A program made the translations under genes and the position numbers. Source: a virus. From it: a stretch of DNA of 27,032 nt. This document shows, one piece after another, positions 50 through 26,975 of this stretch (the stretch's first letter is position 1; every line of letters starts with the position of its first letter). Below the pieces are notes generated by a model, which was not told the DNA's origin, ran no database searches, and saw only the letters and a program-made list of their open reading frames with translations. Location of the stretch: IMG/VR virus record IMGVR_UViG_3300029977_000010, positions 1-27,032 of that record, one strand, 5' to 3'.

Positions 50-124
50 GCCGGTGTAGCTCAATGGCAGAGCAGCGGAATCGTAATCCGCAGGTTGTCC
101 GTTCAAGTCGGATCGCCGGCTCCA
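50..124 (+). tRNA. tRNA-Thr (anticodon CGT), prophage attachment gene
   Basis: The sequence folds as a full cloverleaf. The acceptor is GCCGGTG with CGCCGGC (one G-T pair), the D stem GCTC/GAGC, the anticodon stem GCGGA/TCCGC with loop ATCGTAA, and the T stem GTCCG/CGGAT with loop TTCAAGT. The discriminator is T and the CCA is encoded. Anticodon CGT (82-84) reads the Thr codon ACG. Bases 55-124 are repeated exactly at 26906-26975, so most of this tRNA was supplied by the integrating element and only the first five bases plus the promoter are host-specific. The gene is structurally intact. Confidence 0.95.
55..124 (+). repeat. Left attachment-site repeat (within tRNA-Thr)
   Basis: Seventy bases are identical to 26906-26975. 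Identity stops at base 54 (g here, t in the other copy) and after base 124 (g here, a in the other copy). The repeat covers the tRNA from acceptor position 6 to the terminal CCA. It is an unusually long shared core, since many tRNA-targeting integrases share only the anticodon-loop or T-loop to 3' end portion. Confidence 0.92.
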
Positions 125-1077: not shown

Positions 1078-1746
1078 ATGACAACCACAGCCAAAGAGAA
1101 AGCCAAGCTTGAGAGGAAGATTATGGCAAAGCTGAGAGCACTACCGTATATGGAGAGCTGGGCACTTTACGGAAGGAATCGGGCATATTCCGGTTCTCTA
1201 CCCTTCGGTAAATGTGACCACTGCCATAGGGATACCCGTATCTACGCCTTTGTAGACGGAAAGGAGGTATGTAGCCGCTGTTATGCAAAGCTAAGAAAGA
1301 CTGAATTCAAGCCTCTCCCTCCTAAGACCACTTTCTTCTACTCTGATGATCGGTTCGTGGATTACATGAACTTCAAGCTCGCTGTGGACAAGGCCCTTGG
1401 GAAGGTTAGCCCCCTGACGAGGCGGATTGCTCACCTCCTCATTAAGGGGTACTCCTACAGGGAAATTGCCAATGAACTTGAGGTACCGCTCAGCACCGTT
1501 GCGGCTAAGGCGAAATACTTGTACCGCCTCATCGCTCGATTTGAGCGCTACCAGAACGAAGACGCTTTGCGAAATAGGCTCGTAGCCCAAAGAGAAGCCC
1601 TTGGGTTGAGCCGAAGGGCAATGGCAAGAGAACTTGGTGTAAAACACCACACATTACGCCTTTACGAACTCGGTGAGGTTCTCCCTCCGCTCAACTTCTG
1701 GGAGAAGTATGAGAGCAAGCTTAACGAACTCAAAGACAACAAGTAG
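1078..1746 (+). CDS. DNA-binding regulator: zinc ribbon plus two helix-turn-helix domains
   Basis: The 222-residue protein has three visible modules. Residues 46-68 hold a four-cysteine zinc ribbon (C46-x2-C49...C65-x2-C68). Residues about 111-150 resemble the sigma-70 region 4/LuxR helix-turn-helix (SPLTRRIAHLLIKGYSYREI...). Residues about 165-205 are an XRE/Cro-like helix-turn-helix (REALGLSRRAMARELGVK...LYELGE). A good AAGGAGG site precedes the ATG. It sits directly upstream of the primase gene, separated by a hairpin that could be its operator. The likely role is control of early transcription or the lysogeny decision. This is the only protein in the prophage that looks like a repressor or activator. 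Domain calls are from motifs; the target is inferred. Confidence 0.75.
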   Translation: MTTTAKEKAKLERKIMAKLRALPYMESWALYGRNRAYSGSLPFGKCDHCHRDTRIYAFVDGKEVCSRCYAKLRKTEFKPLPPKTTFFYSDDRFVDYMNFKLAVDKALGKVSPLTRRIAHLLIKGYSYREIANELEVPLSTVAAKAKYLYRLIARFERYQNEDALRNRLVAQREALGLSRRAMARELGVKHHTLRLYELGEVLPPLNFWEKYESKLNELKDNK

Positions 1747-1750
1747 AAGA

Positions 1751-1822
1751 AAGGAGGTTCTCGAACTGGCGCCCTCTGCCTCTTTTACGCCCCCATACAC
1801 AGAGGGCGCCCCATCCACCATG
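1751..1822 (+). promoter_or_regulatory. SD, perfect 11-bp hairpin, then ATG of the primase gene
   Basis: AAGGAGG (1751-1757) comes five bases after the regulator's stop, but the next ATG in frame is at 1820. Between them lies a perfect inverted repeat, GGCGCCCTCTG (1768-1778) and CAGAGGGCGCC (1800-1810), with a 21-base loop. Folding the hairpin would bring the SD within about 19 bases of the ATG. Alternatives are initiation at the in-frame CTG at 1766, eight bases after the SD, or a DNA-level operator for the HTH regulator. Confidence 0.7.
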
Positions 1823-4489
1823 AGAGCATTATATCTCGATAACCGGAACAATGGCAAGACCTTGTTGGGACACGATGTTATAGAGGCCGCTTGTGCTTAT
1901 CTCAAGCGGGGGTGGAAGGTCATCCCTATAGAGAAGCTTAGCAAGAAACCAACCACCAAAGACTGGCCAAACTTGAACATTAGAGAGGAGGAGGTTGACC
2001 TCTACTTTAACGAAGGAAAGAACATCGGGGTCATTCTTGGTAAGCCTTCCGGTGGATTAGTAGATGTAGACATCGACTACCCCCCCGCTTATGAGGTAGC
2101 TGACTACTTCCTCCCCAAAACCGGTGCAATCTTCGGTCGTAAATCCAAACCCAGATCTCACTGGATTTACTACTGCCCAGATGCAGAAACCACGAAGTTT
2201 AGTTTTAAAGGCCAGATGCTGGTAGAGATTCGTTCCACCGGAGCACAAACTATTTTTCCTCCTTCCATTCACCCCTCTGAGGAACCAATTGAGTGGGAGG
2301 AGGCAAGTGAGGCAGCACACGTAGAGATGGAAGAGTTGAAGAGAGGCGTAGCCAAACTTGCCTCCTGCGCGCTGCTTTCTATTTACTACCCCACAGAAGG
2401 TAGCCGCCAATATGCAGCAATGGCACTTGCGGGCTACCTGCTCCGCAGAGGTTGGAGCGAGGACGAAACAAGGGGGTTCCTCGAAGCCCTGTGTAAGCTC
2501 GCTAGAGACGAAGAAACCCGCATGAGACTGACGCAGATTCGCTACACTGCAACGAAGATTGATCGTGACCTACCCACAACAGGCTTCCCCACACTTTCAC
2601 AGTACTACCCAGAGGATGTTCTACAGAAGGTTGCTGAGTGGCTTGGGCTAAAAACCGAGAAACCCAAAACAAAACAAATTGTAGTCCTGGACAAGTTCTA
2701 CCCCCGTCCCTTCACCGAACGGCTCATTGCCCGCTACCAGTTCTGGTGGCCCGGAGGGAAAGAACCACTCTACTGGTACGACCCAGAAGAAGGCATTTGG
2801 CGGGACGACGGCGAAGAGCTCATCATACATGAACTCAGAACAGCTGTTGAAGAACTGCCCGATGTACAGAAGCGGCGGTACGTCATCGATGAGATTATAG
2901 CCGATGTCAAGGGTGTGTGTTGGAAGGGAAAGCCACTTCCCGAACCACCTCTCCATCTCATTCCTCTGCAGAACGGTGTCTTTGACCTTGAAACCGGGGA
3001 AGTGCGAGAATACCGCCCGGAAGACTTCTTTACCGCGAAGCTCCCCTGGCGCTACAACCCCAAAGCTCAGAGTAAGCTCGTCATCCCTCTTATTGAAAGC
3101 ATTTTGCCTCAGGAAGAGACCATTACCCTGTACGAACTAATGGCGTATTGTCTTTTCCGGGACTATCCGTACCAGAAGTTTTTCCTGCTTTTTGGACGTG
3201 GCTCAAATGGGAAGAGCCTCTTTGCCAAAATCCTTGAACGCTTCCTGGGTAAAGAGAACGTTGCTAGTGTAACCCTTCGCGAGTTCCAGCACGATCGTTT
3301 TGCTGCGTCAAGGCTTTACCGCAAGCTGGGGAATATCTGCAGTGAGCTTGAATATGAGGACATCGAGCGCACGGGGCTTCTGAAGCAACTTTGTGGTGGA
3401 GACATGGTTGAGGCAGACCGTAAGTTCCGAGAACCGATAAAGTTCCGGAACTATGCCAAGTTGATCTTCCTTACCAATGAGGTTCCTCGCAGTACAGACA
3501 CCACAGAAGCCTTCTACCGCCGCCTCTTCCTCATCGAGTTCCCAAAGAAGTTCAAGGAAGACCCAGAACTTGAGGTGCGTGTAACCACAGCTGAGGCAGA
3601 GGAATACGAAGCCTTACTTCTCAAGGTGCTGGAAGTGCTCAAAGCTTTGAAGGACCGCGGATTCGTGTTCTCGAGACACAAGTCCATAGAGGAAACCAGG
3701 GAACTCTACCTTAAGCTTTCCTCACCCCTGCACACCTTTATCGAGGAAAACTGCGAGATTACCTACCAGTCCGATGACTACATCTACAAGTATGAGTTTA
3801 AGGAGCGTTTTGGGCAGTGGTTGAAAGAGAAGGGAAGAACCGCCTATACCGACCAGAGACTTAAGAAAGAAATGCAATCGTTAGGGATTGAGGAAGCCCG
3901 CAAGGGTGCCGATAGCTGGTGGGCATGGGTTGGACTCAAATGGAAGGACACACCGTCAAAACCGTCAAGACCGTCAGGGTTTTACAACCGATATATAGCT
4001 GGGGAAAATCGATTTGAAAACCATGACGGTTCTGACGGTCTTGACGGTACACCTTCAAAACCACACTCAACTATTGAAGAAGAAGTCGTAGACCCCACAC
4101 CCTTTGAGAATAGAACTACCAAGGCTAACCCCTCCACTTTTGAGTTTTCTGACCTCCTCCCTGAGGAAGTCTCCCAGTCTGAAGAATCCCTCTTTACTCA
4201 ACCCACCACTCCTACCCAGAACACAACCACCATTGAAGAGGAACTTACCGACTGGCTTATGGAAACCTCTGAGGAAGAGGAACGGGAAACTACCTCCCTT
4301 AGTGACTCGCCCGCTGAAGAAACTCCACTTCCCTGTTCAGTCTGTACCCACCCCAAGCGCTCCGAGATTGAATACCTTTACGACTCTATGGTCTCTCCCA
4401 AAAGACTAAGCAAGAAGTACCGCATTGATGTTGGAGTTATTAAGACGCATATGGAGGTACATCGGAAGAGTACACCTCCTCCGGTCTAA
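1820..4489 (+). CDS. Primase-helicase: prim-pol, D5-type SF3 helicase, C-terminal Cys/His HTH module
   Basis: This 889-residue replication protein begins with a bifunctional primase-polymerase domain (about residues 15-190). The acidic motif is VDVDID (81-86), followed by SHWIY with H114 and an EIRSTGAQTIFPPS segment. A D5_N-like region follows, then an SF3 helicase with Walker A GRGSNGKS (459-466), ICSELE as the Walker B-like motif, sensor LIFLTNE and arginine-finger segment FYRRLF near 565. After a winged-helix-like part comes a linker (711-743) encoded entirely by the 98-bp iteron repeat. Next is a Ser/Thr/Glu-rich stretch, then a module with CSVC near 838 and HMEVH near the end around an HTH-like sequence. 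The ORF remains open back to 1673, but that N-terminus overlaps the regulator. Expected role: unwinding and priming at the phage origin. Confidence 0.9.
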   Translation: MRALYLDNRNNGKTLLGHDVIEAACAYLKRGWKVIPIEKLSKKPTTKDWPNLNIREEEVDLYFNEGKNIGVILGKPSGGLVDVDIDYPPAYEVADYFLPKTGAIFGRKSKPRSHWIYYCPDAETTKFSFKGQMLVEIRSTGAQTIFPPSIHPSEEPIEWEEASEAAHVEMEELKRGVAKLASCALLSIYYPTEGSRQYAAMALAGYLLRRGWSEDETRGFLEALCKLARDEETRMRLTQIRYTATKIDRDLPTTGFPTLSQYYPEDVLQKVAEWLGLKTEKPKTKQIVVLDKFYPRPFTERLIARYQFWWPGGKEPLYWYDPEEGIWRDDGEELIIHELRTAVEELPDVQKRRYVIDEIIADVKGVCWKGKPLPEPPLHLIPLQNGVFDLETGEVREYRPEDFFTAKLPWRYNPKAQSKLVIPLIESILPQEETITLYELMAYCLFRDYPYQKFFLLFGRGSNGKSLFAKILERFLGKENVASVTLREFQHDRFAASRLYRKLGNICSELEYEDIERTGLLKQLCGGDMVEADRKFREPIKFRNYAKLIFLTNEVPRSTDTTEAFYRRLFLIEFPKKFKEDPELEVRVTTAEAEEYEALLLKVLEVLKALKDRGFVFSRHKSIEETRELYLKLSSPLHTFIEENCEITYQSDDYIYKYEFKERFGQWLKEKGRTAYTDQRLKKEMQSLGIEEARKGADSWWAWVGLKWKDTPSKPSRPSGFYNRYIAGENRFENHDGSDGLDGTPSKPHSTIEEEVVDPTPFENRTTKANPSTFEFSDLLPEEVSQSEESLFTQPTTPTQNTTTIEEELTDWLMETSEEEERETTSLSDSPAEETPLPCSVCTHPKRSEIEYLYDSMVSPKRLSKKYRIDVGVIKTHMEVHRKSTPPPV
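3951..4048. repeat. 98-bp iteron repeat, copy 1 (inside primase gene)
   Basis: Three ACCGTCA units start at 3952, 3961 and 3970, and three inverted units TGACGGT start at 4024, 4033 and 4042, all at exactly 9-bp spacing. They flank a 47-bp core with a central ATATATAGC and partial dyad symmetry (GGTTTT...CGAT on both strands). The reverse complement is found without a mismatch at 21416-21513. Because the period is 9, the iterons read in frame as SKP/SRP and DGS/DGL triplets. Candidate replication origin, or a palindromic mobile repeat. Confidence 0.93.
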
Positions 4490-5913: not shown

Positions 5914-6461
5914 GGAAGTTCTTATTGCTGGTGTTCCTCGTCGGTTCTCTTGTCCTGTTCCCTTCCTGTGTGGCTGCACTTCCCGAATTCACTACCTCAC
6001 CCTCGTTTGAGGAGTGGATTTCTAGTCTTGGCACATGGGAGGATTTGGAAGACTTCCTCCTTAGGTGTGAGTATGTCTCTGATTTCGTGCAATTCAACAA
6101 GCGAGAGTACGTCCAGACTCCTGAGGAGTTCTTCCACAATCGTAGGGGAGACTGTGAGGATTTCGCCTACTTTACAGCTTATGTGTTTCATCGGAAGTAC
6201 TGGGCCACCGAGACCTTTGTGGTTTCAGTTTCAGGCTTCTACGACGGTAAGGAGATCAGACATACAACAGCGGTTATTCGCGATCTGGGAGGTTATTTTG
6301 TTGTAGATTTCGCCACAATGTACAGGCGATATTCCACCCTTGAAGAGGCTATAAGAGCAAGCTTCCCATTCCAGAGATTGAGAATCTGGGCAGTTCAGGA
6401 GGTCAAAAGCAACCGAAGCTTGGAATCAGTAACCTTATTGAGTGAATTGGCGAGCCCGTAG
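5910..6461 (+). CDS. Exported transglutaminase-like cysteine protein
   Basis: The 183-residue product begins with a clear signal peptide (charged start, hydrophobic core FLLLVFLVGSLVLF, then PSCVAALP around residue 20). C20 could be a lipoprotein cysteine or part of a signal peptidase I site. The mature part carries a transglutaminase/BTLCP-like triad: C82 in RRGDCEDFAYF, H118 in RHTTAVI and D133 in VVDFAT. Such domains act as cysteine proteases or transferases on proteins or peptides outside the cytoplasm. In a prophage this could alter the envelope, exclude other phages, or help lysis. The last ten bases, including the TAG, lie within the tRNA-Trp gene. Confidence 0.78.
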   Translation: MRKFLLLVFLVGSLVLFPSCVAALPEFTTSPSFEEWISSLGTWEDLEDFLLRCEYVSDFVQFNKREYVQTPEEFFHNRRGDCEDFAYFTAYVFHRKYWATETFVVSVSGFYDGKEIRHTTAVIRDLGGYFVVDFATMYRRYSTLEEAIRASFPFQRLRIWAVQEVKSNRSLESVTLLSELASP

Positions 6462-6527
6462 CTCTAACGGCAGAGCGCCGGACTCCAAATCCGGGGGTTG
6501 CAGGTTCGAATCCTGCCGGACTCGCCA
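6452..6527 (+). tRNA. Phage-borne tRNA-Trp (anticodon CCA)
   Basis: All arms fold: D stem GCTC/GAGC, anticodon stem CCGGA/TCCGG with loop CTCCAAA (anticodon CCA at 6485-6487), T stem GCAGG/CCTGC with loop TTCGAAT, discriminator G and encoded CCA. The acceptor GAGCCCG/CGGACTC has one C-A mismatch at the fourth pair. The three bases before the tRNA (GGC) can pair with the GCC formed by the discriminator and the first two bases of CCA. The upstream gene's stop codon TAG is tRNA positions 8-10. The tRNA must be released from a polycistronic transcript unless a hidden promoter lies in the upstream gene. Confidence 0.92.
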
Positions 6528-21378: not shown

Positions 21379-21415
21379 TCCTCCTCAATACTTGAGTGTC
21401 TCATTGTAAGGTTCC

Positions 21416-21513
21416 ACCGTCAAGACCGTCAGAACCGTCATGGTTTTCAAATCGATTTTCCCCAGCTATATATCGGTTGTAAAACCCTGACGGTCTTGAC
21501 GGTTTTGACGGTG
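21416..21513. repeat. 98-bp iteron repeat, copy 2 (inverted, late region)
   Basis: This is the exact reverse complement of 3951-4048. Identity ends sharply at both sides (c21415 and c21514 do not continue the match). A further single ACCGTCA lies at 21534-21540. The copy is in a non-coding gap that seems to have been created inside the hub gene. The minus strand reads through it in the same frame as the primase linker, but no gene starts there. Confidence 0.93.
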
Positions 21514-21614
21514 CCCTGGCTTTGTTGGGGTACACCGTCAAGTCCATTGTGGATTCCAGCCGAATTCGACCAACGTTGGTTCTTCGTCGGTACCCCACAA
21601 GACAGGTTCAATAG
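21513..21614 (+). pseudogene. Detached C-terminal remnant of the tail hub gene
   Basis: Directly after the repeat a frame reads ALALLGYTVKSIVDSSRI and then RPTLVLRRYPTRQVQ before TAG at 21612. This is a good final beta hairpin for the hub fold. The TAG overlaps the next gene's AGGAGG, which is the packing seen elsewhere in this operon and marks this as the original gene end. No start codon or ribosome site precedes it, and the frame contains a TAA within the repeat (21480), so it is probably not translated alone. Confidence 0.65.
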
Positions 21615-21626
21615 GAGGTGTCTACA

Positions 21627-25272: not shown

Positions 25273-25680
25273 ATGTTCATTTTCGATGTCCAGTTCGGCA
25301 GAGTCTCCGTTGCCTTCTTCGATGGTGAGAATGAGTACGGCTGGTTATGGAAGAAGTCAGAGTTTGAGAACGAATTTGGTGTCAAACTACCAGACTGCTA
25401 TTACGCTCACTATGAAGACGACCACGGCATTGTATTTCTGGACAGGAACACCGTTGCCGAAGAGAAGGTCATTCAGAACTTCGTTGAACTCGTCAAGAAC
25501 AACGAGGAACGCATAAAGACCACGATCCTAAGTAATATGGACGAAGAAAGGCGAAGAGCACTTGAAGAGAGCGTAAGAGTACAGCAAGAAATCGGAGGAC
25601 TCAAGAGGAGAGTGCAGGAGCTTGAGGCTATTGTTTTAGCACTGTCAGAACGTGGTCTGAGAGAACCAACTGGACAGTAA
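25273..25680 (+). CDS. Hypothetical protein with C-terminal coiled coil
   Basis: GAGGAGG is placed seven bases before the ATG. The 135-residue product has a small N-terminal domain (FIFDVQFGRVSVAFFDGENE, YGWLWKKSEFENEFGVKLP) followed by a long charged coiled coil (about residues 80-125). No signal peptide or membrane segment is visible. It is the last rightward gene, where lysis or morons often lie, but nothing shows such a function. Confidence 0.7.
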   Translation: MFIFDVQFGRVSVAFFDGENEYGWLWKKSEFENEFGVKLPDCYYAHYEDDHGIVFLDRNTVAEEKVIQNFVELVKNNEERIKTTILSNMDEERRRALEESVRVQQEIGGLKRRVQELEAIVLALSERGLREPTGQ

Positions 25681-25697
25681 GTAACAGAGGTCATGGA

Positions 25698-25905
25698 CCC
25701 TACGCCTGAAGGCGTAGGGCTTGGGTTGGTGGGCCCAGGGGAAACTCCGTGACTAGGCTGAGGACGGCGCCTGCCGTCCTACGCCTGGCGGGCTACCAAG
25801 GAGGCCGGGATGCCCCCATAGTCCTGGCCTCTCTGGCAGAACCGCTCAATGTCACGATAAATACGGCAAGGAAGCCCACGACTTTAGTCGTGGGTGACTG
25901 ACTAA
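25698..25905 (+). ncRNA. Four-hairpin element, IS200/IS605 right-end or omegaRNA-like
   Basis: Four strong stems follow each other. CCCTACGCC/GGCGTAGGG has loop TGAA (25698-25719). AGGACGGC/GCCGTCCT has loop GCCT (25761-25780). A 10-bp stem GAGGCCGGGA/TCCTGGCCTC spans 25801-25831. CCCACGAC/GTCGTGGG has loop TTTA (25875-25894). The last, in its setting GGAAGCCC...GGGTGACTGAC, closely resembles the right ends of IS200/IS605-TnpB elements, where this part forms the 3' scaffold of the omegaRNA. No tnpA or tnpB is present. It may be a non-autonomous element, a domesticated guide-like RNA, or a structured 3' end shared by the convergent late and integrase transcripts. No T-run typical of a terminator follows any stem. 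Confidence 0.55.
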
Positions 25906-26825
25906 ACCCTTTTGAGCCTTCTTACCTCAAAGATTTTCAGGGGCGAGCTCTTATTGTGCTCGCTCTTCAAATCATCATTAGTGAGAGCAAGGTAACGTTT
26001 TGTCATCGTTAAGTCTGTGTGTCCCAAAATCCTCTGGAGTGCGAATGGATTTATTCCCTCTCGGAGGGAGTAGAGCGCAAAGGTGTGTCTCAAGTCGTAT
26101 GGCGTCACTCGGTAACCTATCTTTTTGCTGTACTCACGGAGAATGTGGCTCCAAGTGTACTCGCAAAGCGGCTTGCCATCCTGAGAGCAGAAGACAGGTA
26201 CATCATTCCCCCAACACTTAGGACGTACCTGGAGTAGTTTTCTCACCCATAGGCAGGTCAATGGAGAGAGTGGTAAAGTACGGCTGGTTTTCGTTTTAGC
26301 TACCTCCTTGCGGATGACGACCTCCCGAGCTTCCAGGTTAAAGTCTTCGGGGAGTAGCTGAATGGCCTCCCTTGGTCGAATACCAGTGTCTAAGGAGAGA
26401 AGCAGAAGGGTGTAATTGCGAAGGCCTGTAAAGGTTCTTTTGTCTGGAAGGTCCAGGAGTTTTTCAACAACCTCTCGAGGCAAAGCTCTGGCTTTGCCCT
26501 CGTCCTTGCGAGCCCTTATTCCCTTCAAGGGGCTTTCCGATAGTACTCCCTGGGCAATAAGATAGCTGAAGAAGTTGTTTAAATAAGCCCGGCGAAGGTT
26601 AAATGTGGCTGGAGCAATCTCTCCCCCTAAGTACTCCAGACACCTCCTGCGCAAAGCCTCAAAGTCCTGCAGGTCTCCCTCATATCCCTGGAAGAAGCGG
26701 CTCACGTGGTAACAGTAATCTCTGATGGTTCTCTCCCTACACCCAGCAAGTTGCTTCTCCATAAGGAAATCCTGAAAGTACTCCTCCCAGGTTTTGGGAT
26801 AAACAACACGTAAGACTCTTCGCAT
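25902..26825 (-). CDS. int: Tyrosine recombinase (phage integrase)
   Basis: AGGAGGG lies seven bases before the ATG at 26825; a TTG at 26831 is too close to it. The protein has 307 residues. The N-terminal SAM-like core-binding domain (TWEEYFQDFLMEKQLAGCRE...) is followed by the catalytic domain: Arg in TGIRPREA, Lys in the VIRKEVAKTK beta hairpin, PYDLRHTF, LGHTD and the nucleophile Tyr in TKRYLAL. The usual first His of the HxxR box is Tyr here (PYDLR), a tolerated variant. It sits beside the right repeat and should insert into and excise from tRNA-Thr. No excisionase was found. Confidence 0.94.
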   Translation of the reverse strand: MRRVLRVVYPKTWEEYFQDFLMEKQLAGCRERTIRDYCYHVSRFFQGYEGDLQDFEALRRRCLEYLGGEIAPATFNLRRAYLNNFFSYLIAQGVLSESPLKGIRARKDEGKARALPREVVEKLLDLPDKRTFTGLRNYTLLLLSLDTGIRPREAIQLLPEDFNLEAREVVIRKEVAKTKTSRTLPLSPLTCLWVRKLLQVRPKCWGNDVPVFCSQDGKPLCEYTWSHILREYSKKIGYRVTPYDLRHTFALYSLREGINPFALQRILGHTDLTMTKRYLALTNDDLKSEHNKSSPLKIFEVRRLKRV

Positions 26826-26905
26826 GTCCAAGCCCTCCTATGAGCAACGGATTCGCCGATTTTGCGTGAACTGGGAGTGGCTTGGAAGGGCTTAAAATAA
26901 GGGTT

Positions 26906-26975
26906 TGTAGCTCAATGGCAGAGCAGCGGAATCGTAATCCGCAGGTTGTCCGTTCAAGTCGGATCGCCGGCTCCA
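26906..26975 (+). repeat. Right attachment-site repeat (tRNA-Thr 3' copy)
   Basis: Seventy bases are identical to 55-124. The five bases before it do not restore the acceptor helix (GGGTT instead of GCCGG), so four of the first five acceptor pairs are lost and this copy should not yield a working tRNA. It marks the right end of the prophage. The following 57 bases are host chromosome without a recognisable feature. Confidence 0.92.

Follow-up and report, generated by a model that had tools for sequence, protein, structure and literature searches.

A HEARO-like (IscB omegaRNA) element without an open reading frame beside the integrase gene of a tRNA-Thr prophage

The window, by which we mean the whole 27,032-nucleotide stretch analysed (positions 1–27,032 of IMG/VR record IMGVR_UViG_3300029977_000010), is a prophage integrated in tRNA-Thr(CGT). 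Its genes include those for terminase, portal, protease, capsid, tape measure and integrase, and the element described here lies between the last small plus-strand ORF and the convergent integrase gene. When the flank and tRNA were searched for in the phylum of G024, a Bacillota MAG, the top match reached 89% over 91 bp, a similarity that suggests, short of proof, that the prophage host belongs to that phylum. The features that frame the element are as follows.

55–124, plus strand: attL within tRNA-Thr(CGT), a 70-nt perfect direct repeat of 26906–26975
25273–25680, plus strand: small ORF upstream of the element, 135 aa, with no convincing family
25902–26831, minus strand: tyrosine integrase (Pfam Phage_integrase, E 4.7e-30), whose stop codon takes in the element's final base
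26906–26975, plus strand: attR, the tRNA-Thr copy of the 70-nt repeat at 55–124

Elsewhere in the prophage, a tRNA-Trp(CCA) gene (6452–6527) is located downstream of a transglutaminase-like ORF. The prophage also carries a 98-nt inverted repeat, 100% identical, one copy of which (3951–4048) lies within a primase/D5-type ORF (1673–4489) and encodes KPSRPSGFYNRYIAGENRFENHDGSDGLDG, while the other (21416–21513) is intergenic among tail genes (21379–21617). The ends of this repeat bear ACCGTCA-type repeats that face each other; a small module, either mobile or linked to replication, is a possible explanation.

The sequence-only reading had described four strong hairpins within about 200 bases at 25698–25905. 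Strong structure was found there, with a fold energy of -113 kcal/mol compared with -81.8 ± 4.75 in 200 dinucleotide shuffles (z -6.56), none of which matched it; the count was revised, since five hairpins are present. The element begins at a GTCA at position 25690, 8 bases 5′ of 25698, which pairs with the TGAC at 25750–25753. Its G+C content is 62%, compared with 50% for the whole window. Hairpins at 25786–25850 and 25874–25895 each have a z score of -4.0, and the element is composed of the following parts.

25690–25902, plus strand: HEARO-like (IscB omegaRNA) element without an ORF, matching positions 1–211 of the Rfam RF02033 model at 49.5 bits
25690–25697, plus strand: 5′ strand of adaptor helix P1, GTCATGGA, 8/8 pairs with 25746–25753
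25698–25719, plus strand: hairpin SL1, CCCTACGCC-TGAA-GGCGTAGGG, z -6.0
25720–25739, plus strand: hairpin SL2, preceded by conserved GGGCTTG, z -2.7
25746–25753, plus strand: 3′ strand of P1, TCCGTGAC, followed by the TAG nexus; TGAC is nearly invariant in an alignment of 19
25753–25788, plus strand: P2 hairpin, GAGGACGGC..GCCGTCCTACG, with a conserved CTACG motif, z -5.4
25800–25832, plus strand: core hairpin with conserved GGGATGC...AGTCC and CTCT
25837–25869, plus strand: expected site of the conserved HEARO 3′ third, with its AACATTGGCGA and the 3′ partner strands of the long-range helices; unrecognisable, with pairs mostly broken
25870–25902, no strand assigned: IS200/IS605-type end hairpin, readable as a HEARO 5′ end (minus strand) or as a TnpB-type right end (plus strand)

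IscB is the transposon ancestor of Cas9, and HEARO is its omegaRNA. The covariance-model search that the sequence-only reading had proposed identified HEARO and no TnpB omegaRNA-type family. The RF02033 match surfaced with permissive Rfam thresholds and has E values of 2.7e-9 (401 bp, all Rfam families) and 4.4e-11 (single family over the record); its 49.5 bits fall below the Rfam gathering score of 83. No other omegaRNA-type Rfam family matched the element region at E ≤ 5. When all sequence after 25868 is deleted, and the right-hand hairpin with it, the score is still 48.0 bits; because of this persistence, the identification rests on the interval from 25690 to about 25836, the part in which the HEARO homology is well supported. 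The earlier view thus holds in that the locus is an omegaRNA-like orphan, belonging to the IS200/IS605 superfamily and without a nuclease gene; its assignment to the TnpB type does not hold, since the body matches HEARO. TnpB was likewise rejected as the main identity on the ground that nearly all of the HEARO score is independent of the right-hand hairpin.

The helices agree with this identification. Compared with the commonest pairs in 54 other HEAROs, pairs 6 and 7 of P1 carry compensatory changes, altered on both strands with pairing kept, while a T-G wobble forms pair 5. An 8-bp P1 closed by TGAC arose by chance in 200 of 50,000 shuffles. Aligned with 18 canonical copies, the element retains GTCA, CCC, GGGCTTG, TGACTAG, GATGC, AG and CTCT..G. 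The features that define HEAROs, namely SL1/SL2, the nexus AG, P2-CTACG and the GGATGC/AGTCC core hairpin, are all present, along with the GTCA..TGAC form of P1, and the element begins, as HEAROs do, at GTCA directly 3′ of the flank. It differs from RF02033 in having no downstream iscB and no 3′ third AACATTGGCGA. A similar P1 subtype, GTCATAGA, was found in the HEAROs L093, L249, L251 and L254. These belong to a HEARO subtype, GTCATAGACCCC, with which the element shares the P1 5′ strand GTCATRGA rather than GTCAACTA; the remaining sequence is too diverged for blastn, and L249, L251 and L254, unlike the element, have complete HEARO 3′ ends.

Alignment to the HEARO model collapses after about 25836, and the conserved 3′ third (...TAACATTGGCGA...) is not recognisable in the element by model alignment. 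A pseudoknot test gave a 4-bp match, no better than shuffled loops. Canonical ISC elements, as defined by repeated copies, begin exactly at GTCA and finish with an imperfect hairpin and, after it, an ATGA/ATAAA-like motif; this canonical 3′ end is absent from the window sequence. A six-frame search of the whole record detected no IscB (RRXRR) domain in the window, and directly 3′ of the element lies the opposite-strand integrase, not an HNH/RuvC nuclease ORF. The earlier statement that the prophage contains neither a transposase nor tnpB was borne out among the window ORFs scanned.

The terminal string noted earlier, GGAAGCCC-ACGAC-TTTA-GTCGT-GGGTGACTGAC, is present at 25870–25902, and its likeness to an IS200/IS605 right end was confirmed in that the hairpin resembles the TnpB right ends of the surveyed genomes. 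Those ends read GGAAGCC...GGAGGTAGTTCAC or ...TTCAGTCATGGGCGGTTCAC, and the element shares with this TnpB right end, or omegaRNA 3′ hairpin, the arrangement GGAAGCC-stem-TTYA-stem-GGG. Against the full TnpB pattern GGAAGCC..TTYA..GGG..TTCAC, the 5′ side agrees and the terminus is TGAC. Read on the minus strand as GTCAGTCACCCACGAC-TAAA-GTCGTGGGCTTCC, the hairpin is shaped like a HEARO 5′ end (compare L089) and scores 18.5 bits against the R1 model (E 0.012 over the window); the hairpin is not assignable to either type, because a genuine TnpB right end (L203) scores 18.6 bits on the same model. A complete second HEARO was considered here and rejected, since the match is confined to the hairpin and Rfam alone gives no HEARO call. 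The right-hand hairpin is an IS200/IS605-type end distinct from the HEARO body, and its orientation is inverted.

Exact copies of the 3′-end patterns were found in neither the viral nor the genome collections, exact copies of the core pattern were absent from the viral collection, and blastn of the element returned no matches in phages or plasmids. No relatives were found through the integrase, the upstream ORF or the tail protein, and the terminase relatives (62% and lower) have neither a HEARO nor an empty site. The element is single copy in the record, and because these searches yielded no second copy or empty site, its insertion is deduced from anatomy only.

We surveyed HEAROs in genomes to ask how common ORF-less copies are. 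HEAROs occurred in 24 of 103 genomes in the Thermotogota survey, more commonly than in the other groups surveyed (12/391, 5/97 and 0/35); the class of G024 is among those with few (5/97). Considering only loci with at least 1.4 kb of downstream sequence (n = 53), iscB was full in 27, partial in 7 and missing in 19. Several genomes carry, in multiple copies, ORF-less elements about 340 bp long or deletion forms that are shorter, and ISC copies without an ORF or with an internal deletion are found repeatedly in the same genome (for example, L184/L185/L187, L176/L177 and L168). These stand-alone omegaRNAs or ORF-less ISC derivatives (L184, L185, L187, L176, L177, L172, L179, L168 and L178) resemble the element in having an omegaRNA without a nuclease gene and an internal ISC deletion. 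They differ in keeping the canonical ISC 3′ end, whereas the element has an inverted IS200/IS605-type end and is single copy. Stand-alone omegaRNAs are already known, and the element is a modest new example.

The survey yielded further observations. One genome (G457) contains about a dozen near-identical ISC elements of about 900 bp (L142–L156), each with a HEARO RNA and about 230 aa of the C-terminal part of IscB; these are a spreading deletion derivative. In the G024 MAG, a HEARO at 46386–46589 of contig C257 (L082) scores 104.8 bits, above the cut-off; neither RRXRR (IscB) nor Cas12f1-like TNB (TnpB) was found in this MAG, and L082 is an apparent further orphan omegaRNA. Three partial HEARO 5′ parts continue straight, without iscB, into the 5′ regions of apparent host genes that by eye are Lgt-like (L109), ROK-kinase-like (L133) and FliG-like (L093). 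In G068, two HEARO-like RNAs of 32–34 bits (L107 and L111) precede a partial or near-complete iscB-like ORF and, from their sequences, would represent a divergent HEARO subtype.

We consider it likely that the element is an ORF-less, 3′-truncated derivative of an ISC (IscB-encoding, IS200/IS605 superfamily) element. Directly observed are the HEARO homology of its 5′ two-thirds, the intact helices there, the absence of iscB and of a canonical 3′ part and end, and the widespread presence of copies without an ORF. In this model, a HEARO omegaRNA gene would have inserted into the tRNA-Thr prophage, in the gap that separates its last late gene from the 3′ end of its integrase gene. Losses would have removed iscB together with the 3′-terminal third of the RNA and the usual terminus of the element, leaving a remnant that now adjoins a second, inverted IS200/IS605-type end hairpin. 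The element is probably mostly a passenger or relic. Read-through from the late genes would give it a 5′ guide copied from the terminal part of the late operon, and at best a host IscB or IsrB could use it in trans, a possible role. Against this reading stand the score below the Rfam gathering value and the pseudoknot match that is no better than shuffled loops; ongoing selection on the RNA could also explain why the helices are intact and compensated.

In IscB and IsrB omegaRNAs, the guide is a 5′ extension of the RNA (PMC9755519, PMC9581776). The guide had earlier been placed after 25905, antisense to the integrase 3′ end; with HEARO guides at the 5′ side, the main candidate moves upstream of 25690.

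25666–25689 (approximate), plus strand: candidate guide, the 5′ flank of the RNA, comprising the end of ORF 25273–25680 and spacer, placed by analogy with IscB/IsrB

An unlikely alternative is that the element functions as a stand-alone omegaRNA: co-transcribed with the late genes, it would load into a host IscB or IsrB, whose targets would match 25666–25689, for example in a phage relative with an empty site. The guide-proximal parts (P1, SL1, SL2, nexus and core) are intact as it would require, stand-alone omegaRNAs that function with IscB are reported in work to which PMC9581776 refers, and more than 16% of fragments encoding HEARO nucleases are of likely viral or prophage origin (PMC9755519). 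However, the candidate guide has no exact 20-nt match in viral contigs, a local scan found no promoter-like site near the element, and the 3′ third is unrecognisable, its S2 partner strand and 3′ hairpins among the parts affected. Because IsrB activity is lost when the pseudoknots are broken and lowered when SL7/8 is truncated (PMC9581776), and the 3′ part is unrecognisable here, a passenger or relic is likelier than an active guide RNA.

Still less probable is a TnpB omegaRNA, or the right end of a TnpB element, with its guide after 25905. The GGAAGCC 5′ of the right hairpin and the TTTA loop, as in the TnpB right ends L200, L203 and L206, would fit it, but the preceding 150 bases are HEARO, with neither tnpB coding sequence nor a TnpB omegaRNA; the ORF list contains no tnpB coding sequence overlapping the scaffold and no ORF upstream of the right hairpin. 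The terminal TGAC, moreover, is nearer to HEARO ends (TTGAC) than to TnpB ends (TTCAC), and the HEARO-model scores are equal for the right hairpin and a TnpB end. We give little credence to a bidirectional transcription barrier between the convergent late and integrase transcripts with no transposon link: the site between convergent genes and the strong hairpins would suit one, but no U-tract follows the hairpins and the HEARO match is left unexplained. An intrinsic terminator was separately rejected, the only nearby terminator-like site being a weak, 5-bp one on the minus strand (25700–25688). It is most improbable of all that outward omegaRNA ends on both strands form a two-ended guide element, with guides from the late-operon end and the integrase 3′ end used in trans by host IscB/TnpB against related phages or alleles without the element, for a homing or exclusion advantage.

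With the locus read as an ISC derivative, the TnpB assignment is corrected to IscB, of the Cas9 lineage, and the candidate guide shifts to the opposite end. A sub-threshold Rfam HEARO match can be a genuine ORF-less derivative, and ORF-less copies are frequent, making up about a third of the HEAROs in the surveyed genomes. Should these copies be expressed, many guide RNAs encoded in trans, prophage ones included, could direct IscB nucleases.
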